Under the pieces are notes generated by a model, which saw only the letters and a list, made by a program, of their open reading frames with translations, had not been told where the DNA came from and searched no databases. 64,000 nucleotides of DNA from Komagataeibacter xylinus NBRC 15237 (GTDB lineage Bacteria; Pseudomonadota; Alphaproteobacteria; Acetobacterales; Acetobacteraceae), in NCBI RefSeq assembly GCF_001571345.1, contig NZ_BCTP01000001.1:62001-126000 (forward strand). The letters are read 5' to 3'. Shown in pieces: positions 3,101-52,803 of the stretch; position 1 is the stretch's first letter, and each line of letters begins with the position of its first letter. The position numbers and the translations under genes are program-made.

Positions 3101-3361
3101 CCCATCCTCATGACCACGCTGGCGGCCATGCTGGGCGCCGTGCCGATGATGCTGGGCACCGGCACCGGCTCGGAACTGCGCCGCCCGCTGGGCATCGCCA
3201 TCGTGGGCGGGCTTGCGGTGAGCCAGTTGCTCACGCTCTTCACCACCCCGGTCATCTACCTGCTCATGGACGGGATCAGCCAGAAGCTGGCCCGTCGCTT
3301 TGGCACAACGGACCAGGCCAGACCTGATGGTGGCCAGCCCGGTCCGCAGGCTTCTGCATGA
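182..3361 (+). CDS. mdtB: RND multidrug efflux permease, MdtB type
   Basis: A 1059-residue inner-membrane proton/drug antiporter of the RND (HAE1) family. The N-terminus ([15 protein letters not shown]) and the run [12 protein letters not shown]...YPGASPDVM are close to E. coli MdtB. The proton-relay pair is visible as D401-D402 in [14 protein letters not shown], the TM4 signature. Length is normal for the family (about 1040). The start is GTG at 182, with GGAG about ten bases upstream. The stop overlaps the next gene's ATG by 4 nt (ATGA), implying translational coupling to mdtC. In E. coli MdtB and MdtC form a mixed trimer exporting bile salts and novobiocin; the substrate here is unknown. 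Confidence 0.93.
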
Positions 3362-6300: not shown

Positions 6301-6657
6301 GCCATCATGCTGGTCGATTTTGCCATCACCGCCGAGCGTGATGAAGGCCATACCGCGCTCGAGGCCATCCGCACCGCCTGCCTGCTGCGCTTCCGCCCGA
6401 TCATGATGACCACGTTCGCCGCGGCCCTTGGCGCGCTGCCGCTCATCTTCGGGCATGGCTACGGCTCGGAGTTGCGCCGCCCGCTGGGCATCGCCATCGT
6501 GGGGGGGCTACTCGTCAGCCAGGCGCTCACGCTTTATACCACGCCGGTTGTCTATCTCTATCTCGACCATATGGGGGTAGCCTGCCGCAACCTTTTCAAC
6601 CGGCTGTATGGACGGCTGTCCCGACGCCATCGTCTTTCCCACCAGCAGGATTCCTGA
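3358..6657 (+). CDS. mdtC: RND multidrug efflux permease, MdtC type
   Basis: A 1099-residue RND permease, the second of a tandem pair. [15 protein letters not shown] and [14 protein letters not shown] match MdtC rather than MdtB, so this is a true B/C heteromer pair, not a recent duplication. The TM4 proton-relay aspartates are D401-D402 ([14 protein letters not shown]), at the same position as in the partner. A Ser/Gly/Thr-rich insertion near residues 780-835 (GGTAGGG, GGNSAST) is longer than in E. coli MdtC and probably extends a periplasmic loop. The gene begins inside the mdtB stop and is followed 5 nt later by the outer-membrane channel gene. Confidence 0.92.
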
Positions 6658-11694: not shown

Positions 11695-11708
11695 TTAAGC
11701 CCGGAGCA

Positions 11709-11739
11709 CAAAAAAAACCCGGCATAAAGCCGGGTTTTC
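11709..11739 (-). terminator. Terminator of the ribosomal protein supercluster, after rplQ
   Basis: CCCGGC and GCCGGG arms with an ATAAA loop, flanked by TTTT on the plus side and an eight-T run on the minus side. It lies about 20 nt past the rplQ stop and closes the rpsM-rpsK-rpoA-rplQ unit. Because it works in both directions, it also insulates the cluster from the divergent region beyond. Confidence 0.92.
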
Positions 11740-11757
11740 TTGAAGGAACAAGGTTCC

Positions 11758-12183
11758 TCAGGCTGCCAGGTTTTCTTCCGTGGCGGCCTCGGGGCGCGGA
11801 CCGCTGTCCTGGCCCTTGGCCGACACATCGCGGTCAACCAGTTCGATCACGGCCATATCGGCCGCATCGCCATGGCGCATGCCCGCACGCAGCACGCGGG
11901 TGTAACCACCCGAGCGTGCCTTGTAGCGGTCAGCCACGGCAGCAAACAGCTTGGACACGATCTTGTCGTCACGCAGCTGGGCGAAAGCCTGGCGGCGGGC
12001 GTGCAGATCGCCGCGCTTGCCAAGGGTGATCAGCTTTTCCACAACCGGGCGGAGTTCCTTCGCCTTGGGCAGCGTGGTGGTGATCTGTTCGTGCTTGATC
12101 AGGGCGACAGCCATGTTGCGAAACATGGCCTGTCGATGGGACGAGGTAACGCCGAGCTTACGGCCGGCAACACCGTGACGCAT
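11758..12183 (-). CDS. rplQ: 50S ribosomal protein L17
   Basis: A 141-residue large-subunit protein located near the exit-tunnel region. The start [24 protein letters not shown] is the L17 signature. The C-terminus ([10 protein letters not shown]) is an acidic extension beyond the E. coli length of 127. It is the last gene of the alpha operon, 33 nt after rpoA, and is followed by the terminator. Confidence 0.97.
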
Positions 12184-12216
12184 GATGTAATTTCCTGTTT
12201 TATCCGGTTCGGAGGA

Positions 12217-13236
12217 TCAGAACGGCTCGTCGAGCCTCTTGGCCAGATCTTCGATATTTTCCGGCGGCCATGCCGGCACATTCATACCCAGTGAAAGCCC
12301 CATGGCGGTTAGGACTTCCTTGATTTCGTTGAGCGACTTGCGACCGAAATTCGGGGTACGCAGCATCTCCTGCTCGGTCTTCTGAACCAGATCACCGATA
12401 TAGACGATGTTGTCGTTCTTCAGGCAGTTGGCGCTACGGACCGACAGCTCAAGCTCATCAACCTTGCGCAGCAGGTTACGGTTGAACGGCAGGTCATCCT
12501 GCGGCTCTTCCGTACGCACCGTGCGCGGCTCATCGAAGTTGATGAACAGCTGGAGCTGATCCTGCAGGATACGCGCGGCCAGGGCCACGGCATCTTCCGG
12601 GGTCACGGCGCCGTTGGTTTCCACCGTCAGCAGCAGGCGGTCATAATCGGTGACCTGACCCACGCGGGTCTGCTCAACCTTGTACGACACGCGACGGACC
12701 GGCGAGTAGATGGCATCAACCGGGATCAGGCCAATCGGCGCATCTTCCGGGCGGTTTGCCGCTGCCGGAACATAGCCCTTGCCCATGTTCACGGTGAATT
12801 CCATCCCGAACTTCACCCCTTCATCAAGGGTGCAGATCACGAGATCGGGGTTCATGACTTCAATGTCATGCCCGGTCTGGATCTGGCCGGCACGCACTTC
12901 GCCGGGGCCGGTGGCCGTCAGCACCATGCGCTTGGGGCCTTCGCCATGCATCCGCAGCGCGAGCTGCTTGATGTTCAGCACGATGTCGGTCACGTCTTCA
13001 CGAACGCCCGCCACCGACGAGAATTCATGCAGCACGCCGTCAATCTGGATTGCCGTAACCGCAGCCCCCTGCAGGGACGACAGCAGAACCCGACGGATCG
13101 CGTTGCCCAGCGTCATGCCGAAGCCGCGTTCCAGCGGTTCGGCTACGACAGTAGCAATGCGTGAAGGTTCCGCCCCCGGTTCGACTTCCAGTTTTTCCGG
13201 CTTGATCAGGGATTGCCAGTTTTTCTGGAGGACCAA
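12217..13236 (-). CDS. rpoA: DNA-directed RNA polymerase subunit alpha
   Basis: A 339-residue alpha subunit, the scaffold for RNA polymerase assembly. The N-terminal dimerisation domain carries [29 protein letters not shown] (about residues 25-53). The C-terminal domain, from about residue 255, has the helix-hairpin-helix element that contacts UP elements and activators ([25 protein letters not shown]). Its ATG lies 22 nt beyond a strong UUCG-capped hairpin. Confidence 0.97.
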
Positions 13237-13257
13237 GGTAATGGCCTTTCAAGACTG

Positions 13258-13281
13258 ATCTGCCACCCGAAGGTGGCAGAT
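13258..13281 (-). promoter_or_regulatory. UUCG-capped RNA hairpin upstream of rpoA
   Basis: Arms ATCTGCCACC and GGTGGCAGAT form a perfect 10-bp stem; read in the mRNA sense the loop is UUCG closed by a C-G pair, an exceptionally stable tetraloop. It ends 22 nt before the rpoA ATG, so it could affect mRNA processing or translation of rpoA. No U-tract follows, so it is not a standard terminator. Confidence 0.8.
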
Positions 13282-13314
13282 GGTACCCTTTGGCAGGATA
13301 CCGGAATGACAATC

Positions 13315-13334
13315 TTCCCCTGCATGCAGGGGAA
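13315..13334 (-). repeat. Perfect 20-bp palindrome between rpsK and rpoA
   Basis: TTCCCCTGCA is followed directly by its reverse complement, with no spacer. It lies 23 nt past the rpsK stop. In RNA it would form a hairpin; as DNA it is a perfect dyad that a dimeric protein could bind. Confidence 0.75.
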
Positions 13335-13357
13335 ATACGACTAAGGCAGACGGCGTA

Positions 13358-13750
13358 TCAGACGCGACGGCGCTTGCGGGGACGGCAGCCGTTATGCGGC
13401 ACCGGCGTCATGTCACGGATGGCCGTGATCGAGAAACCGACAGCCTGCAGCGCGCGCAGGGCGCTCTCACGCCCCGAACCCGGACCGGAAACCTCGATCT
13501 CCAGCGTTTCCATGCCGTGCTCGCGGGCCTTGCGGCCTGCATCTTCAGCAGCAACCTGCGCCGCATACGGCGTGGACTTGCGCGAGCCCTTGAAACCCTG
13601 GGCACCAGCGGAAGACCAGGCAATCGCATTGCCCTGCGCATCCGAGATGGTGATCATGGTGTTGTTGAAGGTGGACAGCACATGCGCCACACCGGAGATG
13701 ATGTTTTTCCGCTCTTTCTTACGAATACGCGGAGCCGCAGCTTTCGCCAT
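13358..13750 (-). CDS. rpsK: 30S ribosomal protein S11
   Basis: A 130-residue platform protein of the small subunit. [30 protein letters not shown] and the C-terminal [18 protein letters not shown] are diagnostic for S11. It follows rpsM by 77 nt and precedes rpoA in the usual alpha-operon order. Confidence 0.97.
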
Positions 13751-13827
13751 AATTTTCTCGATCCTGTCAGTTCAAACGGTGCACGGAACCCGCAGGCTCC
13801 ATGCACTCATACCAGGCAATCCGCTGA

Positions 13828-14205
13828 TTAGCGGGTCGCCTTCTTCTTGCCCGCAATAGCCACGGCCTTACCCTTGCGGGTACGGGCGTTGGTATGAGTC
13901 CGCTGACCATGGACAGGCAGGCCACGACGGTGGCGCAGGCCACGGTAGCAGCCGAGGTCCATCAGGCGCTTGATGTTCATCGCCACTTCACGGCGAAGGT
14001 CACCTTCAACGCGGTAATCGCTGTCGATCAGTTCACGGATCTTGCCGATCTCGTCGTCAGACAGTTCGTTGACGCGCCGCTCAGCCGGAATTTCCAGCTT
14101 GTCGCAGATCGCCTGGGCCTTGGTGGCCCCGATACCATAGATATAACGAAGGCCAATTGTGACCCGCTTGTTGCTAGGGATGTTCACGCCGGCAATACGT
14201 GCCAC
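13828..14205 (-). CDS. rpsM: 30S ribosomal protein S13
   Basis: A 125-residue head protein contacting the P-site tRNA and bridging to the large subunit. [15 protein letters not shown] and the basic C-terminus ([19 protein letters not shown]) are diagnostic. It is the first gene of the alpha operon here, and a recognisable promoter lies about 200 nt upstream. Confidence 0.97.
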
Positions 14206-14400
14206 GCCACTTACTCCTCGTCCGCCCCTGATTCAGGGCACTAACTATCAGGCAGGGCTGCGTCACACCACCCGCCCTGTCTGGCGGGAGCATCGTGAAC
14301 ATACCGGTTACGGACCGGCCAACCCCATCATCATACATTCTGGCCCTACGAGCCGCCCCTCATGGACGACTCACACGACGCTCATACCTTGAGGGCGCGC

Positions 14401-14428
14401 GATATACTGCTGCCCCCCATTGAGTCAA
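14401..14428 (-). promoter_or_regulatory. Putative promoter of the rpsM-rpsK-rpoA-rplQ unit
   Basis: On the minus strand TTGACT (14423-14428) is followed after 16 nt by TATATC (14401-14406). The -35 box starts about 10 nt past the adk stop, and the gap to rpsM is 233 nt, much longer than between other genes of the cluster. This implies a leader of nearly 190 nt, which could hold a control site for an alpha-operon protein. I see no clear structure in the leader. Confidence 0.65.
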
Positions 14429-14438
14429 TTATTTTGCA

Positions 14439-15098
14439 TCACTTTTTAGTGATACGATCGATAACACCAAAGACCTGTTTGGTCACGTCATCGATATCCG
14501 CCATGCCATCCACACGGTAAAGCCGCGTTTCAGCCTCGTAATAAGGCAGGATCGGCGCCGTGAGTTCCCGATAGGTCTTCAGGCGCGCAGCCACGGTCTC
14601 CCGCCGGTCATCTTCGCGGCGAATGAACTCATGGCCGCCACACACATCGCATGTGCCTTCCACCTTCGGCCGCTTGGACACGTCGTTATACCCCGCACCG
14701 CACTTGGCGCAGGTGTAACGGCCCGCGATCCGGTCGGCCAGGGCATCCTCGTCCACATCAAGCAGCAGCACCGCATCGATGTGCTGCCCGCTGCGGGCCA
14801 GCATGGCATCAAGTGCTTCCGCCTGTGCCCGCGTGCGCGGGAAGCCATCAAGGATGAACCCCCTGGCGCAGTCCGGCTGGCGGATACGGTTTTCAATCAT
14901 GGCAATGATCAGGTCATCGGACACAAGCTGTCCGTTCGCCATGACCGCCTTGACCTTCAGCCCGAGCGGGCTGCCCGTCGCGACTTCAGCCCGCAGCATG
15001 TCGCCGGTTGAAATCTGGGCGATTCCGTAGCGTTCTTCCAGCCGCTTTGACTGGGTGCCTTTTCCAGCACCCGGCGGCCCGAGAAAAATAATATTCAC
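14439..15098 (-). CDS. adk: Adenylate kinase
   Basis: A 219-residue long-form adenylate kinase converting ATP + AMP to 2 ADP. The P-loop GPPGAGKGTQ is at residues 7-16. The DGFPRT motif and LID region follow. The LID carries a four-cysteine zinc site (CAKCGAGYN...CDVCGG), as in Gram-positive and many alphaproteobacterial enzymes but not E. coli. The ATG overlaps the secY stop by 4 nt, the usual secY-adk coupling. Confidence 0.97.
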   Translation of the reverse strand: MNIIFLGPPGAGKGTQSKRLEERYGIAQISTGDMLRAEVATGSPLGLKVKAVMANGQLVSDDLIIAMIENRIRQPDCARGFILDGFPRTRAQAEALDAMLARSGQHIDAVLLLDVDEDALADRIAGRYTCAKCGAGYNDVSKRPKVEGTCDVCGGHEFIRREDDRRETVAARLKTYRELTAPILPYYEAETRLYRVDGMADIDDVTKQVFGVIDRITKK

Positions 15099-16444
15099 CG
15101 CATTTTGCCCTTTCGGCCCCGTCCGCGACGCATGAGGCCCTGATACTGATGCGCCACCAGATGCGACTGCACCTGTGTCACGGTATCGATCGTCACGGTC
15201 ACGATAATGATCAGACTCGTGCCACCAAAATAGAACGGCACGTTGTAATGGCTGATCAGGATCTGCGGCAACAGGCAGACAGCGACAAGATAGAGCGCGC
15301 CAATAGTCGTGATGCGCGTCAGGATCCTGTCAAAGAACGCCGCCGTGTTGGCGCCAGGCCGGATGCCGGGCACAAAGCCGCCCTGCTTGCGCAGGTTCTC
15401 CGCCGTCTCCTGCGGGTTGAACGTCACCGCCGCATAGAAATACGAGAAGAACACGATCATCGCCGCGTAGAACAGCATGTAGAGCGGCTGCCCCTGCCCC
15501 AGCGATTGCCCCAGGAAGGACAACCAGCCAGGCATCGAGCTGTTGTTGACGAATCCCGCAATGGTCACGGGAATCAACAGCACCGATGAGGCGAAGATCG
15601 GCGGAATCGAGCCTGCGGTGTTCACCTTGAGCGGCATGTGCGTCGAGTCACCGCCAAACATGCGCTGGCCGACCTGCCGCTTGGGGTACTGGATCACCAC
15701 GCGCCGCTGCGCGAGTTCCATGAACACGATGAACGCGATGGTCACCGCGGCCAGTACCAGGAAGACCAGCACGAAGAACGGCGAAAGCGCCCCGGTATAG
15801 CCAAGCTGGAACAGGCTTGCGAGCGCATTGGGCAGGTTTGCCACAATACCCGCGAAGATAATCAGCGAGATGCCGTTCCCGACCCCCCGCGACGTTATCT
15901 GCTCGCCCAGCCACATCAGGAACATGGTGCCGCCCACCAGCGTCAGCACGCACGAGACGATAAAGAACAGCCCCGGCGAGACAACGGCCGAGCCCGCCTC
16001 CGTATGCATGTTCTCCAGCCCGATGGCGATGCCGTAGGCCTGGAACAGCGCGATGACCACTGTCAGGTAGCGGGTATATTCATTCAGCTTGCGCCGCCCG
16101 CCCTCGCCTTCCTTCTTCAGGGCTTCAAGGGAGGGAATGGCCGCTGACATGAGCTGCACGATGATCGAGGCACTGATATAGGGCATGATGTTGAGTGCGA
16201 ACACGGTCATGCGCCCCAGCGCACCACCCGTGAACATATCGAACATACCCAGGATACCGCCCTGATGCCGGGCCAGAAGCTGCCCCATCACCGTCGCATC
16301 GACGCCAGGGACGGGGATATAGGTGCCAATCCGGTAGACGATCAGCGCACCGAGGGTAAACCAGATACGCTTCTTCAGTTCCGTTGCGTTGGCAAAGGAG
16401 CTGAAATTCAGATTGGCAGCCAACTGTTCGGCCGCGGAGGCCAT
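15095..16444 (-). CDS. secY: Protein translocase subunit SecY
   Basis: A 449-residue channel subunit of the Sec translocon with about ten membrane helices. Signatures include YRIGTYIPVPGVD near the start, LGIMPYISASII-like NIMPYISASIIVQL (about residues 85-98), and the cytoplasmic loop with GLMRRGRGRKGK at the C-terminus. It would form the inner-membrane channel with SecE, which is not encoded in this window. A 158-nt gap with a terminator-like hairpin separates it from rplO. Confidence 0.96.
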   Translation of the reverse strand: MASAAEQLAANLNFSSFANATELKKRIWFTLGALIVYRIGTYIPVPGVDATVMGQLLARHQGGILGMFDMFTGGALGRMTVFALNIMPYISASIIVQLMSAAIPSLEALKKEGEGGRRKLNEYTRYLTVVIALFQAYGIAIGLENMHTEAGSAVVSPGLFFIVSCVLTLVGGTMFLMWLGEQITSRGVGNGISLIIFAGIVANLPNALASLFQLGYTGALSPFFVLVFLVLAAVTIAFIVFMELAQRRVVIQYPKRQVGQRMFGGDSTHMPLKVNTAGSIPPIFASSVLLIPVTIAGFVNNSSMPGWLSFLGQSLGQGQPLYMLFYAAMIVFFSYFYAAVTFNPQETAENLRKQGGFVPGIRPGANTAAFFDRILTRITTIGALYLVAVCLLPQILISHYNVPFYFGGTSLIIIVTVTIDTVTQVQSHLVAHQYQGLMRRGRGRKGKMR

Positions 16445-16522
16445 GCGCCCATCCTTTCACAAGAACAGCGCCACCGCCGAAAACGGGACGCTGTCATGAT
16501 AAAAAAAACCGCAGAAAGTAAT

Positions 16523-16560
16523 AAAGCGATGCGCCCGCCGAGTGCAAGCAGCATCGCTTT
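16523..16560 (-). terminator. Terminator-like hairpin between rplO and secY
   Basis: AAAGCGATGC (16523-16532) pairs perfectly with GCATCGCTTT (16551-16560) across an 18-nt GC-rich loop. On the transcribed (minus) side the stem is followed by TTTATTACTTTC and, 14 nt further, by an eight-T run. It may attenuate read-through from the spc genes into secY-adk. The loop is long and the U-tract interrupted, so strength is uncertain. Confidence 0.55.
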
Positions 16561-16602
16561 TATCATGCTTCGGGTACAGAACGTGCCTGTGCCCCCAGCC
16601 GG

Positions 16603-17091
16603 TCATTCGGCGGCAGGAGCCTGCTGCTTCTGGACCTTGACCTGCACCTTGCCGCCAGCCTTTTCAACTGCGGCAATGGCACCGGCCGAAGCACCGGACA
16701 CTTCAATGGTCACGGCGTGGTTCAGCGCGCCATCGGCCAGCAGGCGGATGCCATCAAAGCGGCCCGACCCGGCCAGACCGGCAGTGGTCAGAATTTCTCA
16801 CGTCACCACGGCCTTGGCGTCGATCTTGCCAGCAGCAATCGCCTTGTCGAGCACGCCCAGGTTCACCACCGCATAATCCTTGCGGAAGATGTTCTTGAAG
16901 CCGCGCTTGGGCAGACGACGGTAGATGGGCAGCTGACCGCCTTCAAAACCGTTCAGCGACACACCGGAGCGCGCCTTCTGACCCTTAACACCCTTGCCCG
17001 ACGTCTTGCCCTTGCCAGAGCCGATGCCGCGACCAAGGCGCTTCTTGCGATAGCGTGCGCCCTCGTTGTCACGAAGTTCGTTCAGGTTCAT
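16603..17091 (-). pseudogene. rplO: 50S ribosomal protein L15, interrupted by an in-frame TGA codon
   Basis: Reading from the ATG at 17091 gives 97 residues with the L15 signature ([34 protein letters not shown]), then TGA at 16798-16800. In the same frame 64 more codons follow ([17 protein letters not shown] ... [26 protein letters not shown]) to TGA at 16603-16605. The second part is clearly the missing C-terminal rRNA-binding half of L15. Ignoring the internal stop the product is about 162 residues, a normal L15 length. One substitution could explain the break; no frameshift is needed. The gene follows rpmD by 1 nt. It may be a base-call error, a recent nonsense mutation or a readthrough codon. 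Confidence 0.9.
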
Positions 17092-17092
17092 C

Positions 17093-17281
17093 TCAATCCT
17101 CCACCTTGATCAGGTGGGACACCTTGCGGATCATGCCACGAACTGAAGGGGTATCCTCCAGTTCGCGGGTACGACCGATCTTGTTCAGGCCCAGGCCCAC
17201 CAGCGTAGCCTGCTGGCCCGGCTTCTGGCCATTGCCAGAATGCACCTGGGTAACGCGAATGGTTGCCTTGGTATCAGACAT
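17093..17281 (-). CDS. rpmD: 50S ribosomal protein L30
   Basis: A 62-residue protein. The core ([46 protein letters not shown], split here by eye) has the L30 fold signature LGLNKIGRT...PSVRGM. Its start overlaps the rpsE stop by 8 nt, and rplO begins 1 nt after its stop, giving tight coupling rpsE-rpmD-rplO. Confidence 0.95.
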
Positions 17282-17852
17282 CGGCCGCAGCCTCCGTCGC
17301 TACCGCAGCCTCGCGGCGCCCCAGAATGTCCGAAACCTTCTTGCCACGGCGGTTGGCAACCGAACGCGGGCTGGCGCAACGCTCCAGCGCGGCAAACGTC
17401 GCCTTGACCATGTTGTGCGGGTTGCGGGTGCCGAGCGACTTGGCCACCACGTCATTGATGCCCAGGCTCTCGAACACAGCGCGCATCGGACCACCGGCAA
17501 TGATGCCCGTGCCCGCATCAGCGGAGCGCAGGACAACCTTGCCCGCCCCGAAGTGACCGGCCACATCGTGATGCAGCGTACGGCCTTCCTTCATCGGAAC
17601 GCGGATCATCGTCCGCTTGGCGCGGTCGGTTGCCTTGCGGATCGCCTCGGGAACCTCACGGGCCTTGCCCGCGCCGAACCCTACGCGACCCTTCTGGTCA
17701 CCAACAACAACCAGTGCCGCGAATGCAAAGCGGCGACCGCCCTTTACAACCTTGGCAACACGATTGATCGTGACCAGCTTGTCGACCAGATCGTCGCCTT
17801 CGCGGTCACGATCGCGACCACCCCGGCCGCCTTCTCTCGGTTCACGTGCCAT
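17274..17852 (-). CDS. rpsE: 30S ribosomal protein S5
   Basis: A 192-residue small-subunit protein involved in decoding fidelity and helicase activity at the mRNA entry. The double-stranded-RNA-binding N-domain ([33 protein letters not shown]) and the C-domain ([28 protein letters not shown]) are typical. The Arg/Glu/Gly-rich N-terminus ([18 protein letters not shown]) and Ala-rich tail are extensions compared with E. coli. Confidence 0.96.
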
Positions 17853-17869
17853 TATGCGTGACCCTTTCG

Positions 17870-18232
17870 TCAGAACGAGAGACCGCCCTCACGGGCAGCC
17901 TCCGCCAGGGCCTTGATACGCCCATGATACAGATACGCGCCGCGGTCGAAAACGACCTTCGACACACCAGCAGCTACCGCGCGCTCGGCAAGAAGCTTGC
18001 CGACTGCACCGGCTGCCTTCACGTCCGTACCACCCTTGAGGGTGGAACGCAGATCCTTGTCGAGGGTCGAAGCTGCGGCCAGCGTGCGGCCAGCGGCATC
18101 GTCGATCACCTGCGCGTAGATATTCTTGCCCGAACGGAACACCGACAGACGCGGACGGCCACCACTCTTGAGGCGAAGCTGGAAACGGAGACGCTGGCGC
18201 CGCCGCTCCCGCAGATCCTTCTGCGTGCTCAT
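17870..18232 (-). CDS. rplR: 50S ribosomal protein L18
   Basis: A 120-residue 5S rRNA-binding protein. [20 protein letters not shown] and the C-terminal [24 protein letters not shown] are diagnostic. Its ATG overlaps the rplF stop by one base (TAATG), so it is probably translated by reinitiation after L6. Confidence 0.97.
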
Positions 18233-18765
18233 TATTTCTTCTTGCCTTCCTTGCGACGGATGGTTTCCGTTTCATAACGGACACCCTTGCCCTTGTAGGG
18301 CTCAGGCTTGCGGAAGCTACGGATATCAAGCGCAACCTGACCAACCCGCTGCTTGTCGATCCCCTCGACAGTCACGGCCGTCGGCCGCGGGGTGGTGATC
18401 TTGATCCCTTCGGGAATCGCATAGACGATGTCATGCGAATAACCGAGGTTCATGACCAGGTTCTTGCCCTGCACCGCAGCACGGTAACCGGTCCCGGAGA
18501 TTTCCAGTGTCTTGGAAAACCCTTCCGACACACCCTTGACCATGCTCGCGATCAGGGAACGCGTGGTCCCCCACATCATGCGGGCCTGGGCTTCGGTGCC
18601 AACCGGCTTTACCGCAACCTTGCCATCCGCAACATCAACGGCGACATGACCGGACAGCGGCAGCTTGAGCTCGCCAAGCTTGCCCTTCGTGGTCAGCACG
18701 CCACCAGCAACGGAAACCTGAACACCCGACGGAACTTCGACGGGATATTTGCCCACTCGCGACAT
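18232..18765 (-). CDS. rplF: 50S ribosomal protein L6
   Basis: A 177-residue protein near the factor-binding site, with two repeated domains. [17 protein letters not shown] opens the first, and [22 protein letters not shown] closes the second. It sits in the standard spc order rpsH-rplF-rplR. Confidence 0.97.
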
Positions 18766-18775
18766 TTATCCCTCC

Positions 18776-19174
18776 TCAGAACACACGGCAGAGGACTTCA
18801 CCGCCAACATTGGCAGCGCGGGCCTCCGCATCGGACAGAACACCACGCGGCGTCGACAGGATCGACACACCCAGCCCGGCATAGACACGCGGCAGTTCCT
18901 TGATCTTGGAATAGACGCGACGCCCCGGCTTGGACACACGGTGGATTTCTTTGATGACCGGCTCGCCATCGAGATATTTCAGCTCGATGCGCAGCTGGGC
19001 CACACCCTTGCGCAGTTCCTCACGCGAGAAACCACGGATATATCCCTCGCGGCGAAGCGCCTCGAGAACACTGGCGCGCAGCTTGGAAGCCGGCGCCACG
19101 CAGGCAGCATGCCGTGCACGCTGCGCGTTGCGGATCCGGGTGAGCAGATCACCCAAAGGATCAGAAAGTGACAT
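18776..19174 (-). CDS. rpsH: 30S ribosomal protein S8
   Basis: A 132-residue assembly protein that binds helix 21 of 16S rRNA. DPLGDLLTRIRNAQRA at the N-terminus and the C-terminal GVSILSTPRGVLSDAEAR are diagnostic. In E. coli S8 represses the spc operon through a site near rplE; whether that site exists here cannot be judged by eye, although a hairpin covers the rplE stop. Confidence 0.97.
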   Translation of the reverse strand: MSLSDPLGDLLTRIRNAQRARHAACVAPASKLRASVLEALRREGYIRGFSREELRKGVAQLRIELKYLDGEPVIKEIHRVSKPGRRVYSKIKELPRVYAGLGVSILSTPRGVLSDAEARAANVGGEVLCRVF

Positions 19175-19186
19175 CGTTCCCTGCCC

Positions 19187-19492
19187 TTACCAGCTTGACT
19201 TGACCATGCCCGGGATCTGACCATTAGAGGCCAGGTCGCGCAGGGCGATACGGCAGAGTTCAAACTTTCTGTAATTGGCGCGAGGACGCCCGGTGAGCTT
19301 GCAGCGCAGGCGCACGCGCACGCGCGAGCCATTGCGAGGAAGTTCAGCAAGCTTGAGCGACGCATCGAATCGATCTTCAACCGGCAGAGACCGATCCATG
19401 ATGATGTTCTTCAATGCAGTCCGCTTAGCCCGGTCCCGGTCTGCCATGCGCTCGCGCTTGACATTCCGGTTTACGGCGGAAATTTTGGCCAT
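19187..19492 (-). CDS. rpsN: 30S ribosomal protein S14, long zinc-free form
   Basis: A 101-residue S14. The start at 19492 ([10 protein letters not shown]) is chosen over an upstream start 17 codons earlier because 101 is the normal length and the extension does not resemble S14. The C-terminal [26 protein letters not shown] is the family signature. There is no CxxC pair, so it is the zinc-independent form. Confidence 0.96.
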
Positions 19493-19579
19493 GCCTTGTT
19501 TTACCCTCCGGAACCTGTCGGGCCAGTCCCAACGGTTTTCCAAACAACGTGTGTATTAGGTCTTCTGGACTTCAGACGG

Positions 19580-19613
19580 AAGCCCTTTCGCTACATTTTA
19601 TGCAGCGAAGGGC
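19580..19613 (-). repeat. Inverted repeat over the rplE stop codon
   Basis: On the minus strand CCCTTCGCT, at the end of the rplE coding sequence, pairs with AGCGAAAGGG across the TAA stop, with one bulged A. The hairpin lies at the head of the 105-nt rplE-rpsN gap. There is no U-tract. It could slow ribosomes or RNA decay between the two genes. Confidence 0.5.
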
Positions 19614-20167
19614 AGATCAAACGCCTTCAGCAGAGCCTTCGCTTCCGCATCCGTCTTCGCAGTGGTCACGAAGATGATGTCCATGCCGCGGATCTCGTCT
19701 ACCTTGTCGTATTCGATTTCCGGGAAGACAATCTGTTCCTTCAGCCCCATCGCGAAGTTGCCACGACCGTCGAAACCCTTGTTCGCCGGCAGCCCGCGGA
19801 AATCACGCACGCGTGGCAGGGCGATCGTCACGAAACGATCAAGGAATTCGAACATCTGGGCACGGCGCAGAGTCACCTTGCACCCGATGGGCAGACCTTC
19901 GCGGATCTTGAAACCGGCGATCGCCTTCTTGGCAACCGTCTTGACCGGCTTCTGACCAGCGATAAGGGTCATTTCCTTGACCGCCGCGTCGAGCTTCTTC
20001 TGGTCGCCAGCGGCTTCGCCAACACCCATGTTCAGGACAATCTTCTCGAGACGCGGAACCTGCATCTCGTTCTTGTACCCGAATTCCTCGCGCAGCTTCG
20101 CGCGCAGCTCGTCCTGATAACGCTGCTGCATGCGCGGCAGGGCGCGGGCTTCTTTCACTTCAGACAT
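19598..20167 (-). CDS. rplE: 50S ribosomal protein L5
   Basis: A 189-residue 5S rRNA-binding protein contacting the P-site t[40 protein letters not shown] and the C-terminal [21 protein letters not shown] are diagnostic. It lies 10 nt after rplX. The N-terminus carries about ten extra residues ([10 protein letters not shown]) before the conserved region. Confidence 0.97.
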
Positions 20168-20177
20168 TCCCGCCCCC

Positions 20178-20498
20178 TCAGCCTTCGATTACTTCGCCGG
20201 TCGCCTTGGCGACACGAACCTTGCGACCATCTTCCAGAACACGGAAGCCGACTTTCGTCGGGTCGCCGCTCTTGGGGTCGATCAGCTTCAGGTTGGACAG
20301 GTGGACCGGCATTTCCTTCTGGACAATGCCACCCTGCTCACCCATGCGCGAAGGACGGGTATGACGCTTCGCAATGGCAACGCCACGCACCACAGCCTTG
20401 TTGGCTGCGGGGAGGACCGTAACAACCTCGCCACGGGTTCCCTTGGAACCACCGGTGGTGACCAGAACCTGGTCACCTTTCTTGATACGAGCAGCCAT
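20178..20498 (-). CDS. rplX: 50S ribosomal protein L24
   Basis: A 106-residue assembly-initiator protein near the exit tunnel, with a KOW motif ([22 protein letters not shown]). Its start overlaps the rplN stop by one base (TAATG). Confidence 0.97.
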
Positions 20499-20866
20499 TA
20501 CAGCACCTCCGGTGCCAGCGAGATGATCTTCATGAACTTGCGCGCACGCAGCTCACGCACGACCGGGCCAAAGATACGGGTACCGATCGGCTCCTGCTGC
20601 TTGTTGATCAGCACGGCCGCGTTGCGGTCAAAACGGATGGCGCTGCCATCAGCCCGGCGCACGGGGTAGGAAGTACGCACGATCACCGCCTGGTGAACGT
20701 CGCCCTTCTTGACCTTGCCGCGGGGAATGGCTTCCTTGACGGACACGACAATCACGTCGCCGACCGAGGCAGACTTCCGCTTGGAACCGCCCAGTACCTT
20801 GATGCACTGCACCTGACGGGCGCCGGAATTGTCGGCGACGTCAAGGTTGGTCTCGGGATGGATCAT
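20498..20866 (-). CDS. rplN: 50S ribosomal protein L14
   Basis: A 122-residue protein forming an intersubunit bridge. [28 protein letters not shown] and the C-terminal [26 protein letters not shown] are diagnostic for L14. It is tightly packed with rpsQ (14 nt) and rplX (1-nt overlap). Confidence 0.98.
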
Positions 20867-20880
20867 GGTCTATGCCTTCT

Positions 20881-21162
20881 TTACGCCTGGGCGCCAGACG
20901 CAGCACCGGCGGCTGCCGCGAGCGGCTGGCCATTCCGGACAACGACCGTCCAGGTCTTGCGGCGGGAAATCGGCTTGCATTCTTCAATGCGCACCGTGTC
21001 GCCCACCTTGCATTCGTTCAAGCCGTCATGCGCCGCATACTTCTTCGAGCGACGAATGAACTTCTTATACAGCGGGTGGATAATGCGACGATCGACAAGA
21101 ACCGTAACGGTCTTGTCCATCTTGTCGCTCGTTACCCGCCCGGTCAGGACGCGCCTTGGCAT
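20881..21162 (-). CDS. rpsQ: 30S ribosomal protein S17
   Basis: A 93-residue protein. The start at 21162 ([19 protein letters not shown]) is chosen because upstream residues in the longer frame look like intergenic translation and would run into rpm[20 protein letters not shown] is the S17 core. The C-terminus has an Ala-rich tail ([12 protein letters not shown]). Confidence 0.96.
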
Positions 21163-21175
21163 CGCCCGTCTCCCT

Positions 21176-21412
21176 TCAGGACTTTGCTGCCGGCGCGTGG
21201 CCGGCAGAACTCTTCTTAACAACCTGGGTCGCAATCGTCTTCACACGCGCGATCTCACGACGCACCACGCGCATGCGGGACTGCCCCTCGGTCTGGCCGG
21301 TCGCGTGCTGAAACCGAAGATTGAACTGCTCGCGCTTCAGATCGACGAGAAGCGTATCCAGTTCTTCAACAGTCTTGGCACGCAGATCGGCGGGCTTTGT
21401 TGCCTTTGCCAT
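21176..21412 (-). CDS. rpmC: 50S ribosomal protein L29
   Basis: A 78-residue protein at the tunnel exit, near the docking site for trigger factor and [35 protein letters not shown] is the L29 signature. It starts 1 nt after the rplP stop. A short Lys/Ala/Ser tail extends beyond the E. coli length of 63. Confidence 0.97.
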
Positions 21413-21413
21413 C

Positions 21414-21830
21414 TCACGCCTCTCCGATACGGGTCACGAACTTGGTCTTGATCGGCAGCTTTGCCGCACCGAGAGCCAGCGCTTCACGCGCGACTTCCGG
21501 CGACACGCCTTCGATCTCGAACAGGATTCGACCCGGCTTCACACGAGCCACCCAAAATTCGGGCGACCCCTTGCCGGACCCCATACGCACTTCTGCCGGC
21601 TTTGTCGAGACCGGAAGATCAGGGAAAATCCGAATCCAGACACGACCCGCACGCTTCATGGCACGGGTAATGGCCCGGCGGGCCGCTTCGATCTGGCGGG
21701 CCGTGATCCGTTCAGGCTGGAGAGCCTTCAGGCCAAAAGCCCCGAAATTCAGGGTTGTGCCGCCCTTGGCCAACCCGTGAATGCGCCCTTTGTGGGCCTT
21801 GCGGTACTTTGTCCGCTTGGGAGAAAGCAT
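21414..21830 (-). CDS. rplP: 50S ribosomal protein L16
   Basis: A 138-residue protein near the A-site t[27 protein letters not shown] at the start and the [27 protein letters not shown] core are diagnostic. The conserved Arg region targeted by the YcfD hydroxylase in E. coli (VRMGSGKG) is present. Confidence 0.98.
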
Positions 21831-21875
21831 TTTTCAAATCCTCACGCGCCGCCTGGCGCATCTAGGTCCATTGGA

Positions 21876-21897
21876 CCCCGCAGTTAGCGCTGCGGGG
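21876..21897 (-). repeat. Hairpin at the rpsC stop codon
   Basis: CCCCGCAG and CTGCGGGG form a perfect 8-bp stem with a six-base loop that contains the rpsC stop. The 53-nt gap to rplP also holds two smaller inverted repeats, GCGCC/GGCGC at about 21846-21859 and GGTCC/GGACC at about 21866-21878, so the spacer is almost fully self-complementary. Confidence 0.65.
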
Positions 21898-22561
21898 CCT
21901 GTTCGGCGGCGCGACGGTCCTGCGCCAGCGGATCATGGGCAAGAATCTCGCCCTTGAAGATCCAGACCTTCACACCACAGGTGCCATAGGTCGTCTTGGC
22001 GGTCGCCACACCATAGTCGATGTCCGCACGCAGCGTATGCAGCGGCACCCGACCTTCACGATACCACTCGACGCGCGCGATTTCCGCGCCGCCAAGACGG
22101 CCCGAGCAGTTGATCCGGATACCCTGCGCGCCAAGGCGCATGGCGGACTGCACGGCGCGCTTCATGGCGCGACGGAAGGCCACGCGGCGCTCGAGCTGCT
22201 GGGCGATGTTCTCGGCCACCAGGGTCGCGTCGATTTCCGGCTTGCGGATCTCGACGATGTTCAGCGCGACATCGGTCTTGGCCATCCGGGCCAGGTCCTT
22301 GCGCAGCACATCAATGTCCTGGCCCTTCTTGCCGATCACCACGCCGGGGCGTGCAGCGTAGATGGTCACGCGCGGCTTCTTGGCCGGGCGCTCGATCACC
22401 ACGCGGGACACGCCGGCACCTGCCAGCTTACGGCGCAGGTAGGCGCGCAGCTTCAGGTCGTCATGCAGCAGGCGGGCATAGTCCGCATCGGCGTACCAGC
22501 GGCTGTCCCATGTCCGGTTAATACCGAGCCGAAGCCCGATCGGATTAACTTTATGTCCCAT
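21884..22561 (-). CDS. rpsC: 30S ribosomal protein S3
   Basis: A 225-residue protein at the mRNA entry channel. [24 protein letters not shown] is diagnostic. The KH type-2 domain ([21 protein letters not shown], about residues 68-90) and the C-terminal domain ([13 protein letters not shown]) are intact. It lies 3 nt after rplV and 53 nt before rplP. Confidence 0.98.
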
Positions 22562-22564
22562 GGA

Positions 22565-22966
22565 TCAGGCCGCCTTTTTTTCGGTTTCAGCTTCGGGCTT
22601 CTTTTCCGCCACGACGATGGTCAGGTGGCTGAAAAACTTCTCGATGCGGGCCGAACGGCCACGACCACGTGCGTGGAAACGACGCATCACGATCGACTTG
22701 CCCACCTCAGCGCGGGCAACAACCAGCTGGTCAACGTCCAGCTGATGGTTGTTCTCGGCGTTGGCGATCGCACTTTCCAGCGTCTTCTTGACCTGCTGGG
22801 CAATGCGACGCTTGGAGAATGTGAGGGTGGCGATTGCCTGCGCAGCCGGCTTGTTGCGGATCAGACCCGCAACAAGGTTCAGCTTGCGCGGGCTGATGCG
22901 GATGTTCCGCGTCAGCGCCTGCGCCTCGGTTTCCGCGAGCGTGCGCGGATGCTTAGGCTTGCTCAT
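22565..22966 (-). CDS. rplV: 50S ribosomal protein L22
   Basis: A 133-residue protein lining the exit tunnel. [22 protein letters not shown] and the beta-hairpin loop ([17 protein letters not shown]), which reaches into the tunnel and is the site of macrolide-resistance mutations elsewhere, are intact. The tail is Ala/Glu/Lys-rich. Confidence 0.97.
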
Positions 22967-22968
22967 GT

Positions 22969-23247
22969 TCAGCCCCGCTTCGCTTTCTTGTCCGAAGAAT
23001 GACCCGTGAAGGTACGGGTCGGTGAGAACTCACCGAACTTGTGGCCCACCATGTTCTCGGAAACCTGCACGGGCAGGAATTTGTGCCCGTTATAGACGCC
23101 GAACGTCAGTCCGACGAACTGCGGCAGGATGGTGGATCGACGCGACCAGATCTTGATCACTTCGTTACGGCCCGACGCGCGCGATGCATCGGCTTTGTTC
23201 AGCAGATACCCGTCTACGAACGGGCCCTTCCAGACGGAACGTGCCAT
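22969..23247 (-). CDS. rpsS: 30S ribosomal protein S19
   Basis: A 92-residue head protein contacting S13. [42 protein letters not shown] and LGEF-like [15 protein letters not shown] are diagnostic. It sits 2 nt before rplV. Confidence 0.98.
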
Positions 23248-23259
23248 CTTAAATGCCCC

Positions 23260-24090
23260 TTACTTGCCGGTCTTCCGGCGACGGATGATCAGACTGTCCG
23301 TACGCTTGTTGACCCTGGTCTTGTAACCCTTAGTCGGCTTGCCCCATGGCGTAACCGGATGACGCCCACCCGAAGTGCGTCCTTCACCACCACCATGCGG
23401 ATGGTCAACCGGGTTCATGACGACACCACGGTTGTGCGGGCGGCGGCCCAGCCAGCGATTGCGGCCGGCCTTGCCCAGGTGCTGGTTCATGTTGTCCGGG
23501 TTGGACACGGCACCGATGGTGGCCATGCATTCCGCGCGAACAACACGCAGCTCACCGGACTGCAGCTTGATCTGGGCATAGCCCATGTCCTTGCCGACCA
23601 GCTGCGCATACGTGCCAGCCGAACGGGCGATCTTGCCACCAGCACCGGCCTTGAGCTCGATGTTGTGGATGATCGTGCCCACCGGAACGGCAGACAGGGG
23701 CATGGCGTTGCCCGGCTTGATATCGGCGCGCGCACCGGCGATGACTTCGTCACCAACCTTCAGGCGCTGCGGCGCGATGATGTAGGCCAGCTCGCCATCG
23801 GCATACTTGATGAGCGCGATGAACGCCGTACGGTTGGGATCGTATTCAAGGCGTTCCACCGTGCCGACCACGTCGAACTTGCGACGCTTGAAGTCAACAT
23901 AACGGTAGGACTGCTTGTGTCCGCCACCGATGAAACGCGAGGTGGTGCGACCGTGATTGTTACGGCCGCCGCTCTTGTTCTTCCCCTCGGTCAGGCCCTT
24001 GACGGGCTTGCCTTTCCACAGCTCCTTGCGGTCGATCAGAACCGTTCCGCGCAGGCTGGGGGTAACTGGATTAAAGTGCTTCAATGCCAT
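23260..24090 (-). CDS. rplB: 50S ribosomal protein L2
   Basis: A 276-residue core protein of the peptidyl transferase region. The conserved loop [28 protein letters not shown] carries the His residue (in HPHGGGEG) near the active centre. The N-terminal [21 protein letters not shown] is typical. Length is normal (273 in E. coli). Confidence 0.98.
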
Positions 24091-24106
24091 TTCTTGTCAC
24101 CCCGCG

Positions 24107-24442
24107 TCAGACCAGCTTCGCGGTCAGGTCGATGGACTGACCTTCTGCAAGCTGAACAAACGCTTTCTTAACATCCGAACGCTGGCCGGGACGTCCCTTG
24201 AAGCGCTTGGCTTTTCCCTTCTGGATGAGCGTGTTCACACCCAGAACCTTCACGCCAAACAGCGTCTCGACCGCAACCTTGATCTCCGGCTTCGTGGCGC
24301 TGATCGCAACCTTGAAGCCAACCTGGTTCTTCTCGGAAAGGGCGGTCGCCTTTTCCGTGATCAGGGGGGAGCGGATGATGTCGTACATCGCTTCCCGAGA
24401 CATGCGTTCCGCCTTCTTGCGGATTGCCAGGATGTTGGTCAT
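24107..24442 (-). CDS. rplW: 50S ribosomal protein L23
   Basis: A 111-residue protein at the tunnel exit, where trigger factor and SRP dock. [14 protein letters not shown] and [29 protein letters not shown] are the family core. The ATG overlaps the rplD stop by 4 nt, which supports this start and its 17-residue N-terminal extension. Confidence 0.95.
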
Positions 24443-25053
24443 GCCAGACGCTCCTTCAGACCCTCAACCCCGGCGCGCGTGATCGCGAGCACATCGTGGT
24501 TCAGGATGTCGTAGACATTGGCGCCCACCGTCGGAAGAATGTCGATCTTCGGCAGGTTGCGCGCAGCACGGCCAAAGTTCTCTTCAACCGCGGCATCCAC
24601 GATCAGCGCGGATGTCCAGCCCAGGACCTTCAGCTTCTTGGCCAGTTCGGCCGACTTGCCCGAGGCGGTCGCTGCATCGAGCACCACCAGCTTGCCTTCC
24701 GCCGCCTTCTGCGACAGGGCGGAAATCAGGCCAAGGCGACGCACCTTCTTGGGCAGGTCATAGCCATGGTCACGCACCACGGGACCATGAACGATGCCAC
24801 CGGTGCGGTACTGCGGCGCGCGCAGCGAACCCTGGCGGGCGCTACCCGTGCCCTTCTGGCGGTACGGCTTCTTGGTCGTGCCGGAGACTTCCCCCATGCC
24901 CTTGACCTTGTGCGTACCAGCCCGGCGCTTGGCCAGCTGCCAGTGCACCACACGCGCCAGGATGTCCGTGCGCGGCGTTGCGGCGAAAATCTCGTCGGGA
25001 AGGCTGGCGGTACCTGCGCTTCCGTTATCGAGGGTTTTGATCTCGTAATCCAT
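24439..25053 (-). CDS. rplD: 50S ribosomal protein L4
   Basis: A 204-residue protein with a long loop reaching the exit tunnel ([41 protein letters not shown]), where erythromycin-resistance changes map elsewhere. In E. coli L4 represses the S10 operon through the rpsJ leader; the leader here is only the 105-nt tuf-rpsJ gap unless transcription starts further upstream. Confidence 0.97.
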
Positions 25054-25065
25054 TGCCCTCTATCC

Positions 25066-25749
25066 TCAGCCCGCAGCCTCAACCAGGGCCGCCGGATACG
25101 GCGCCTCGGCATGACGGGCCTTCTTGATCGCATCACGAACGAGAACCGTTTCATTCTTTCCGCCCGGCACGGAGCCGCGGATCATGATCAGGTTCTTTTC
25201 GGCGTCAACAGCCGCAACCTCAAGGTTCAGCGTAGTGATACGCTCGGAACCGAGATGGCCGGCCATCTTCTTGTTCTTGAAAACCTTGCCCGGATCCTGG
25301 CGGTTACCCGTGGAACCGTGCGAACGGTGACTGATCGAGACACCGTGGGTGGCTTCGAGACCGGCAAAGTTCCAGCGCTTCATCGCGCCGGCAAAACCCT
25401 TACCCTTGCTGGTGCCGGTAACGTCCACCTTCTGCCCCACCACGAAATGGGCGGCGGACAGAGAAGCCCCGACTTCCAGGACGGCGTCATCCGATACACG
25501 GAATTCCGCCAGCTTCTTCTTGGGCTCGACCTTGGCCTTGGCAAAATGGCCGCGATTCGGCTTGGACACATTTTTGACCTTGGCCTTGCCCGCGCCAAGC
25601 TGGACGGCTGTGTAGCCATCACGCTCGGTCGTGCGAACATCAACCACCTGCAGATCATCAAGCTGCAGGACAGTCACCGGCACATGTGTGCCGTCTTCCT
25701 TGAACAGCCGGGTCATACCCAGCTTTTTTGCGATCAATCCGGTGCGCAT
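25066..25749 (-). CDS. rplC: 50S ribosomal protein L3
   Basis: A 227-residue protein near the peptidyl transferase centre. The start [16 protein letters not shown] at 25749 is preferred over a start ten codons earlier, which would run into rps[51 protein letters not shown] (described in parts) is the L3 signature and includes the Gln that PrmB methylates in E. coli (GNRQDPG). Confidence 0.97.
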
Positions 25750-25759
25750 CGTCTGGACC

Positions 25760-26068
25760 TTAGAGTTTAATCTCGACATCTACGCCAGCGGCGAGGTCGA
25801 GTTTCATGAGAGCGTCCACGGTCTGCGGGGTCGGCTCGACAATGTCGAGCAGCCGGCGATGGGTCCGAATTTCGAACTGCTCGCGGCTTTTCTTATCCAC
25901 GTGGGGGGAGCGGTTTACGGTAAACCGTTCAATATGCGTCGGCAGCGGGATAGGACCCCGAACCCGCGCACCCGTACGCTTCGCCGTATTGACGATCTCC
26001 TTCGTGCTGTTGTCTAGCACCCGATGATCGTACGCCTTCAGGCGAATGCGGATGTTCTGGTTGTCCAT
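25760..26068 (-). CDS. rpsJ: 30S ribosomal protein S10
   Basis: A 102-residue protein, also the NusE antitermination factor. [21 protein letters not shown] and [35 protein letters not shown] are diagnostic. It starts the S10 block, 105 nt after tuf and 10 nt before rplC. Confidence 0.98.
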
Positions 26069-26124
26069 CTTTCTGTTTCAGTCCAACTTTACCTGATTCG
26101 GGGGAACCCGATCCGCAATGGAAA

Positions 26125-26148
26125 CCCGGCCGGATTGCTCCGACCGGG
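26125..26148 (-). repeat. Hairpin in the tuf-rpsJ gap
   Basis: CCCGGCCGG and CCGACCGGG pair around a six-base loop with one internal mismatch. It begins 25 nt past the tuf stop. No U-tract follows, so it is more likely a processing or stability element than a full terminator. I see no convincing promoter in the gap. Confidence 0.6.
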
Positions 26149-26173
26149 ATGCCACAGTTCAGTTACTGTCCAA

Positions 26174-27364
26174 TCACGCCGTGATGGAAGCAACAACACC
26201 TGCACCAACGGTGCGACCGCCTTCGCGGATAGCGAAGCGCAGGCCTTCATCCATGGCGATCGGAGCGATCAGCTCGACATCCATGGCGACGTTATCGCCA
26301 GGCATGACCATTTCCGTGCCTTCCGGCAGGTGAACGACGCCGGTGACGTCGGTCGTGCGGAAATAGAACTGCGGACGATAGTTGGTGAAGAACGGCGTGT
26401 GACGGCCACCCTCTTCCTTCGTCAGGATGTAGGCTTCCGCCTTGAACTTGGTGTGCGGGGTGATCGAGCCCGGCTTTGCCAGCACCTGGCCACGCTCAAC
26501 GTCTTCACGCTTCGTGCCACGCACCAGTGCGCCGATGTTGTCACCTGCTTCACCACGGTCGAGCAGCTTGCGGAACATTTCAACGCCGGTCACGGTCGTC
26601 TTCTGCGTCGGGCGCAGGCCAACGATCTCGATTTCGTCGCCAACGTTTACCACGCCACGCTCGACACGGCCCGTCACCACGGTGCCACGGCCCGAGATGG
26701 AGAACACGTCTTCGATCGGCATCAGGAACGGACGGTCGACCGGACGCTCCGGCTGCGGGATGTATTCGTCCACAGCGTTCATCAGGTCCAGAACGCGGTT
26801 TTCACCGACTTCCGCGTCGCCGTCTTCCAGCGTCACCAGGGCCGAACCCTTGATGATGGGGATATCATCGCCGGGGAACTGGTAAGCGGAAAGCAGCTCG
26901 CGCACTTCCATTTCCACCAGCTCAAGCAGCTCCGGATCATCAACCTGGTCAACCTTGTTCAGGAAGACGACCAGAGCCGGCACGCCAACCTGGCGGGCAA
27001 GCAGGATGTGCTCGCGGGTCTGGGGCATCGGGCCATCAGCGGCCGACACGACCAGGATCGCGCCGTCCATCTGCGCGGCACCGGTGATCATGTTCTTCAC
27101 ATAGTCAGCGTGGCCGGGGCAGTCGACGTGTGCGTAGTGACGCTTCGCGGTCTCGTACTCGACGTGGGCGGTCGAGATGGTGATGCCACGGGCGCGCTCT
27201 TCCGGCGCGGCGTCGATCATGTCGTACGCCTTGAATTCCGCGCCACCGGACTTCGCCAGCGTCTTGGTGATAGCAGCGGTCAGCGAGGTCTTGCCGTGAT
27301 CGACGTGACCAATCGTACCGATGTTGCAGTGCGGCTTATTCCGCTCAAATTTAGCCTTTGCCAT
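26174..27364 (-). CDS. tuf: Elongation factor Tu
   Basis: A 396-residue GTPase that delivers aminoacyl-tRNA to the ribosome. The G1 loop GHVDHGKT is at residues 19-26, followed by switch I ([12 protein letters not shown]), G3 DCPGHADY and G4 NKVD. The C-terminal barrels are intact to [15 protein letters not shown] precedes the ATG. It follows rpsG directly, without fusA between them. Confidence 0.98.
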
Positions 27365-27379
27365 CGTTTTCTCCGTTAA

Positions 27380-27448
27380 CTCGGCCTCGTGCCGAGAGTC
27401 GGGTTGGAAAGTTCCGTTTCGGAAGCCGGGCCGGTGAATAGACCGGCC
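27380..27448 (-). repeat. Two hairpins in the rpsG-tuf gap
   Basis: GGCCGGT/ACCGGCC (27429-27435 with 27442-27448, loop of 6) lies about 10 nt past the rpsG stop. CTCGGC/GCCGAG (27380-27385 with 27391-27396, loop of 5) lies just upstream of the tuf ribosome-binding site. Together they fill most of the 93-nt spacer where many related genomes carry fusA. Confidence 0.65.
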
Positions 27449-52712: not shown

Positions 52713-52722
52713 AATCAAAGAT

Positions 52723-52803
52723 AAAAGTTTTTGGGTGCCGCCTTTGTTCAAAAAGGCGGCTTTCTTCTGAAGCTTTTTGAAAAAAGCTTCACCAAAAACT
52801 TTT
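52723..52803. repeat. Composite AT-rich element of nested hairpins between convergent genes
   Basis: Terminal arms AAAAGTTTTTGG (52723-52734) and CCAAAAACTTTT (52792-52803) are perfect 12-bp inverted repeats. Inside lie two perfect hairpins: GCCGCCTTT/AAAGGCGGC (52737-52745 with 52752-52760) and GAAGCTTTTT/AAAAAGCTTC (52769-52778 with 52781-52790). The T-runs on both strands make it a likely bidirectional terminator for kgtP and the AsmA-like gene. Its core is shared with the element at 63637-63676. Confidence 0.88.

Follow-up and report, generated by a model that had tools for sequence, protein, structure and literature searches.

An in-frame TGA codon interrupts the ribosomal protein L15 gene in the draft genome of Komagataeibacter xylinus NBRC 15237: a candidate recent loss-of-function allele

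Interrupted rplO gene in the ribosomal operon

The gene encoding ribosomal protein L15 (uL15), rplO, is interrupted at codon 98 by an in-frame TGA in the genome record of Komagataeibacter xylinus NBRC 15237, and the presence of this premature stop in the record is certain. The best reading, which we favor with modest confidence, is a recent strain-level loss-of-function allele that would have arisen by clustered mutation. This null allele ranks first among the explanations considered, with a local consensus error close behind. A limited literature search found no published account of a stop in rplO of Komagataeibacter.

The window analyzed is the whole 64,000-nucleotide stretch of contig 1 presented above. 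Translation of the minus strand from 17091 to 16603 gave 97 residues of L15, a TGA (16800-16798), and a further 64 L15 residues that end at a terminal TGA, just as the first-pass annotation had described. Its remark that no frameshift is needed for the full frame was likewise confirmed, with the downstream L15 sequence continuing in the same frame after the TGA. The neighboring proteins are presumed to be the products of rpmD, rpsE, and secY. The position of rplO between rpmD and secY in the ribosomal operon is the usual place of the uL15 gene. The predicted product matches PF00828 with 67.8 bits (curated cut-off 21.5), and one TGA lies inside the match, which spans residues 75-150; the TGA takes the place of its 24th residue. 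rplO of NBRC 15237 does not form the one uninterrupted reading frame of a uL15 gene. The 3.62 Mb assembly (156 contigs, 100% complete, 1.84 contamination) was searched for a second L15 gene, and the single PF00828 match was rplO itself. The lesion is located approximately 78.8 kb into the 196,956-base contig 1, far from the contig ends.

Table 1. Features of rplO and its neighbors (window coordinates).
Feature	Position	Strand	Remarks
rplO (uL15) frame	16603..17091	-	162 codons and stop, broken at codon 98
In-frame TGA, codon 98	16798..16800	-	glutamate in congeners (18/18)
97-residue 5' half	16801..17091	-	N-terminal extension and first part of globular domain
Intact 3' half	16603..16797	-	64 codons and normal terminal TGA, common to 18 congeners
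PF00828 globular domain	16642..16869	-	residues 75-150; TGA inside; coordinates converted from contig to window
Three-difference cluster, 6 bp	16795..16800	-	private versus six nearest congeners
rpmD (L30), presumed	17093..17281	-	directly upstream; protein identical in six nearest congeners
rpsE (S5), presumed	17274..17852	-	protein identical in six nearest congeners
secY, presumed	15095..16444	-	next gene downstream, open

Some other features were observed elsewhere in the window. Several copies of an interspersed repeat of about 88 bp, one of them at 52717-52803, occur on contigs 1 and 2 as well as in the congener genome G017; as single-stranded DNA, the repeat is predicted to form a long hairpin with branches (z -7.0). 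No Rfam family matches the window at gathering score. Positions 1145-3261 and 4321-6557 are neighboring diverged copies of similar genes, with cross matches of 70-76%, and the translated part of 1145-3261 resembles an RND efflux pump.

Comparison with relatives

L15 is uninterrupted over residues 1-162 in all 18 other genomes of the genus that were searched. Alignment with the rplO genes of these relatives at 16798-16800, a check suggested in the first-pass annotation, showed glutamate at column 98 in 18/18. None of the congeners shares the TGA (0/18), and absence of the disabling change from close relatives is what is looked for in a null allele. When the stop is read as tryptophan, the protein shares 98-99% identity across residues 1-162 with that of the six nearest congeners. 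L16, encoded in the same operon and used as a control, is uninterrupted in 19/19 genomes of the genus. A second, weak L16 match with a TGA inside was seen in G010; showing 36% identity across 73 positions, it was judged not to be L16.

Among the best 80 of 559 confirmed loci, those from Komagataeibacter swingsii and K. europaeus match the first half best (96% identity over 97 residues). Column 98 is occupied in these best 80 of the 559 loci by E (49), A (13), H (11), Q (3), I (2), G (1), and T (1); tryptophan was found there in none of these best 80 more distant loci. Their proteins are at least 151 residues long in 79 cases, and the remaining one (L063, 114 residues) ends off its contig. A survey of the family matched 240 of 249 genomes at E 1e-20, leaving nine without a match, and listed 150 matches, NBRC 15237 included. 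A stop was flagged in five of the 150 family matches listed. Four of the flags (G061, G081, G147, and G153) come from intact L15 proteins in which the alignment extends beyond the normal terminal stop, and NBRC 15237 alone among these 150 has an interior stop. Judging from the family matches listed, such interior-stop alleles appear to be rare.

Clustered private changes at codons 98-99

The stop codon differs from the corresponding codon of the congeners at two adjacent bases or more in all 18, and because of this a single miscalled base would be insufficient to explain the stop. The earlier suggestion of a base-call error is thereby narrowed: an artefact of sequencing stays viable, but one wrong base does not suffice. 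A third private change, relative to the six nearest congeners, is located in codon 99; it is synonymous, and the same base also occurs in other congeners. The codon difference of two bases or more and the private change beside it are new points beyond the first-pass annotation.

In an alignment of 3,486 columns with the six nearest congeners, NBRC 15237 has 15 private sites, compared with 30, 22, 29, 12, 16, and 22 in those six genomes. rplO holds six of the 15, and three of them fall in a span of 6 bp at codons 98-99. For 15 sites scattered along the alignment, a hand estimate puts the expected number of such triplets below 0.01. Adjacent private pairs occur in one genome only of the six nearest congeners (L005, with two). 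Such pairs thus appear to be uncommon, yet not unique to NBRC 15237.

The sequence 3' of the stop contains one private change in 195 bases, which is synonymous, and a hand estimate gives about 0.8 private changes of any kind expected there whatever the cause of the stop. The intact downstream half emphasized in the first reading was therefore observed again, but tells little about the origin of the TGA.

The altered 14-mer has no second site in the genome at ≤1 mismatch, and the idea that the altered bases were copied from another genomic site was rejected. A scan of viral contigs for the rplO allele gave no match.

Possible local sequence error

A local consensus or assembly error, in which rplO of the strain is normal and about 6 bp of the draft are incorrect, is the strongest alternative and a serious possibility, although it is considered less probable than a null allele. 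The glutamate in 18/18 congeners, the perfect frame after the stop, and the clustering of changes, which resembles a bad patch, are all consistent with such an error. Contig 1, however, has zero non-ACGT letters in its 196,956 bases, no contig end is near, and the altered 14-mer occurs nowhere else. The synonymous nature of the third change, whose base is also found in other congeners, argues against error as well. Scattered consensus error would also produce three private changes in 6 bp, two of them adjacent and at a site without a second copy, less readily than one wrong base. An adapter-like 8-mer was examined as a possible cause of lost reads, and this source of error was rejected: of the four sites that two congeners have in common, three are retained and only that in rplO is lost, with no such loss seen elsewhere.

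Contig 1 is collinear with G017, with approximately 94% identity over the longest match, and the two were searched for further interrupted genes. A first test based on the longest open frames flagged 26 of 167 frames in G017 and 27 of 161 in contig 1, and was dropped because long antisense frames are abundant in this GC-rich DNA. With gene sets based on codon usage, 152 of the 168 genes from the G017 stretch were intact in contig 1, seven were flagged, and nine had no hit; in the reverse test, 146 of the 159 contig 1 genes were intact, nine were flagged, and four had no hit. All seven flags of the G017 set and eight of the nine of the reverse set were inspected, the ninth sitting at the edge of the G017 stretch. 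Four of the seven were judged to be start-codon extensions (stops at 42/556; 13, 24, and 55/732; 4/1184; and 18/475), one to be a wrong frame at a contig end (stop at 66/446), and one to reflect a 5' part that differs (245 residues, in two pieces). rplO (98/162) was judged to be the sole genuine interruption among the seven, and the lack of any other contig 1 gene judged to be truly interrupted also weighs against a consensus error.

Clustered private changes occur across contig 1 at a frequency similar to that in G014 and G017, with 249 adjacent private doublets versus 290 and 209 and 151 clusters of three in 6 bp versus 192 and 123, respectively. The ribosomal-protein stretch (11701-27400), in contrast, has more of them in NBRC 15237 than in two congeners (eight doublet positions versus 0 and 1; five cluster starts versus 0 and 0), which favors a consensus error. 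One of the eight doublets is the rplO site, two are intergenic, and five are in adk, rplF, and tuf, whose frames stay open despite them. An excess of clusters with open frames leaves room for local recombination and for patchy error alike. Private differences are also dense at the end of adk (14500-14999; 17 here, 15 in G017, and 2 in G014) and in tuf (26500-26999; 16 here versus 4 and 3 in two congeners). As a guess, short local recombination tracts may lie behind the adk and tuf bursts.

A broken rplO in a genome record has a precedent. In the accessible part of PMC2330054, sequencing error is suspected to have split certain genes of Vibrio fischeri ES114 version 1.0, rplO among them; rplO is tabled as a frameshift, and the clarification gave a 3' extension. 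That case resembles the apparently broken rplO of NBRC 15237 and supports the possibility of error. The V. fischeri lesion, however, was a frameshift addressed by strain comparison and resequencing (PMC2330054, same part), whereas the NBRC 15237 lesion consists of two adjacent base differences with no frameshift.

Decoding of the TGA

Efficient readthrough of the TGA, with production of full-length L15, is improbable. The intact downstream half is in keeping with it, but TGA is the main stop codon, ending 204 of the 291 genes predicted from contig 1 together with 160 kb of contig 2, and the terminal stops of rpsE and rpmD are both TGA. The view that the genetic code is unchanged was borne out by these counts. 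RF00005 detected 42 tRNAs, and ARAGORN read a UCA anticodon in none of these 42, a set that is incomplete and contains no tRNA-Ile(GAT), perhaps because of collapsed rRNA operons. The 12 matches to tRNA-Sec (RF01852) were all under the gathering score. With no UCA anticodon among the 42 tRNAs, only sub-threshold tRNA-Sec matches, and TGA as the main stop, a suppressor tRNA was rejected.

A comparison of decoding components that covered RF2, tRNA-Trp, and S5 revealed no alteration. RF2 is present and has no position whose residue is common to ≤2 of the 18 congeners, and four congeners carry an identical tRNA-Trp gene. The identity of S5 to that of the six nearest congeners suggests that it carries no private accuracy-changing residue. 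The RNA near the stop shows no unusual fold (z -0.5), with 57 of 200 shuffles folding as well. Tests for a readthrough or selenoprotein gene therefore found neither a UGA-reading tRNA in the incomplete tRNA list, nor a stop conserved in relatives, nor a stable adjacent structure, and the lack of tryptophan at column 98 in the best 80 of the 559 loci also speaks against insertion of this residue. Less probable still is a TGA that is real and fixed in the species, with leaky UGA decoding at codon 98 such that ribosome accuracy would set the supply of L15.

A two-piece L15, produced by termination at codon 98 and reinitiation, with the two fragments assembling together, is very improbable. Both halves are open and conserved, as it would require, but the first in-frame ATG/GTG/TTG beyond the stop is codon 127, so that 29 residues would be lost; of the rarer starts, just ATT (codon 100) and CTG (codons 101 and 106) are close by. 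The break also lies within the PF00828 domain and not at its edge. Neither readthrough nor two-piece translation, both raised in the first-pass annotation, thus drew support from the tRNA, RF2, tRNA-Trp, RNA-fold, and restart-codon checks. Genome-wide reassignment of TGA, for which the in-frame TGA is the only argument, is hardly credible and was rejected, being contradicted by the use of TGA as the commonest stop, the set of tRNAs found, an ordinary RF2, and contig 1 genes in which no other interior TGA was judged to occur. Under either the null-allele or the error reading, no decoding new to biology is called for.

A candidate null allele and the dispensability of L15

For the preferred reading, a recent null allele, the following course of events is proposed. 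A clustered mutation would have changed two adjacent bases and created the TGA at codon 98, and the third private base, 4 bp on, would probably belong to the same event. Ribosomes would halt at the TGA and release a fragment of 97 residues. With the TGA at residue 24 of the PF00828 match, this fragment would keep the N-terminal extension and lose most of the globular domain. The cell would survive if L15 is not strictly required for a working 50S subunit, and the second half of the gene would be clean because the event is young. We infer that the base calls are right, that full-length L15 is not produced, and that the strain may pay a cost in growth. Nonsense by a double base change is a rare type of mutation, which counts against a null allele.

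The earlier statement that L15 can be dispensable with slow growth receives mixed support from the literature. In the accessible part of PMC5319836, L15 is counted as non-essential in Escherichia coli and Bacillus subtilis, and five ciprofloxacin-selected mutants of Mycobacterium smegmatis carry rplO frameshifts. Doubling times of the M. smegmatis ribosomal mutants are 4-6.5 h versus 2.4 h, and ribosome assembly is impaired in rplO-1 (PMC5319836). On the other side, L15 is termed a critical assembly protein in the text seen of PMC7535068, and that of PMC2330054 lists rplO among the genes essential to E. coli and further bacteria. When rplO-1 was passaged, three of three cultures returned to wild-type growth with the open frame restored (PMC5319836, same part), so a null allele would be under pressure to revert.

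The M. smegmatis mutants rplO-1 to rplO-3 (PMC5319836) resemble NBRC 15237 in that a small rplO lesion removes, or in NBRC 15237 would remove, intact L15 from a living bacterium. As described in the accessible part of that paper, they differ in having frameshifts at residues 26-28 obtained under ciprofloxacin selection, whereas NBRC 15237 has an in-frame stop at codon 98. One M. smegmatis rplO isolate was also hit in a second gene, and the growth effect was confirmed by allelic exchange, while the candidate allele of NBRC 15237 comes from a draft genome. On the available text of both papers, the M. smegmatis rplO mutants and the split rplO of V. fischeri provide precedents for the null-allele and error readings, respectively.

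If the base calls are wrong, the case would warn that even in a long contig free of ambiguous letters a core gene may contain a clustered error. If they are right, NBRC 15237 would be a strain living without normal L15, and would be useful for studying the role of this protein in 50S assembly outside laboratory mutants.
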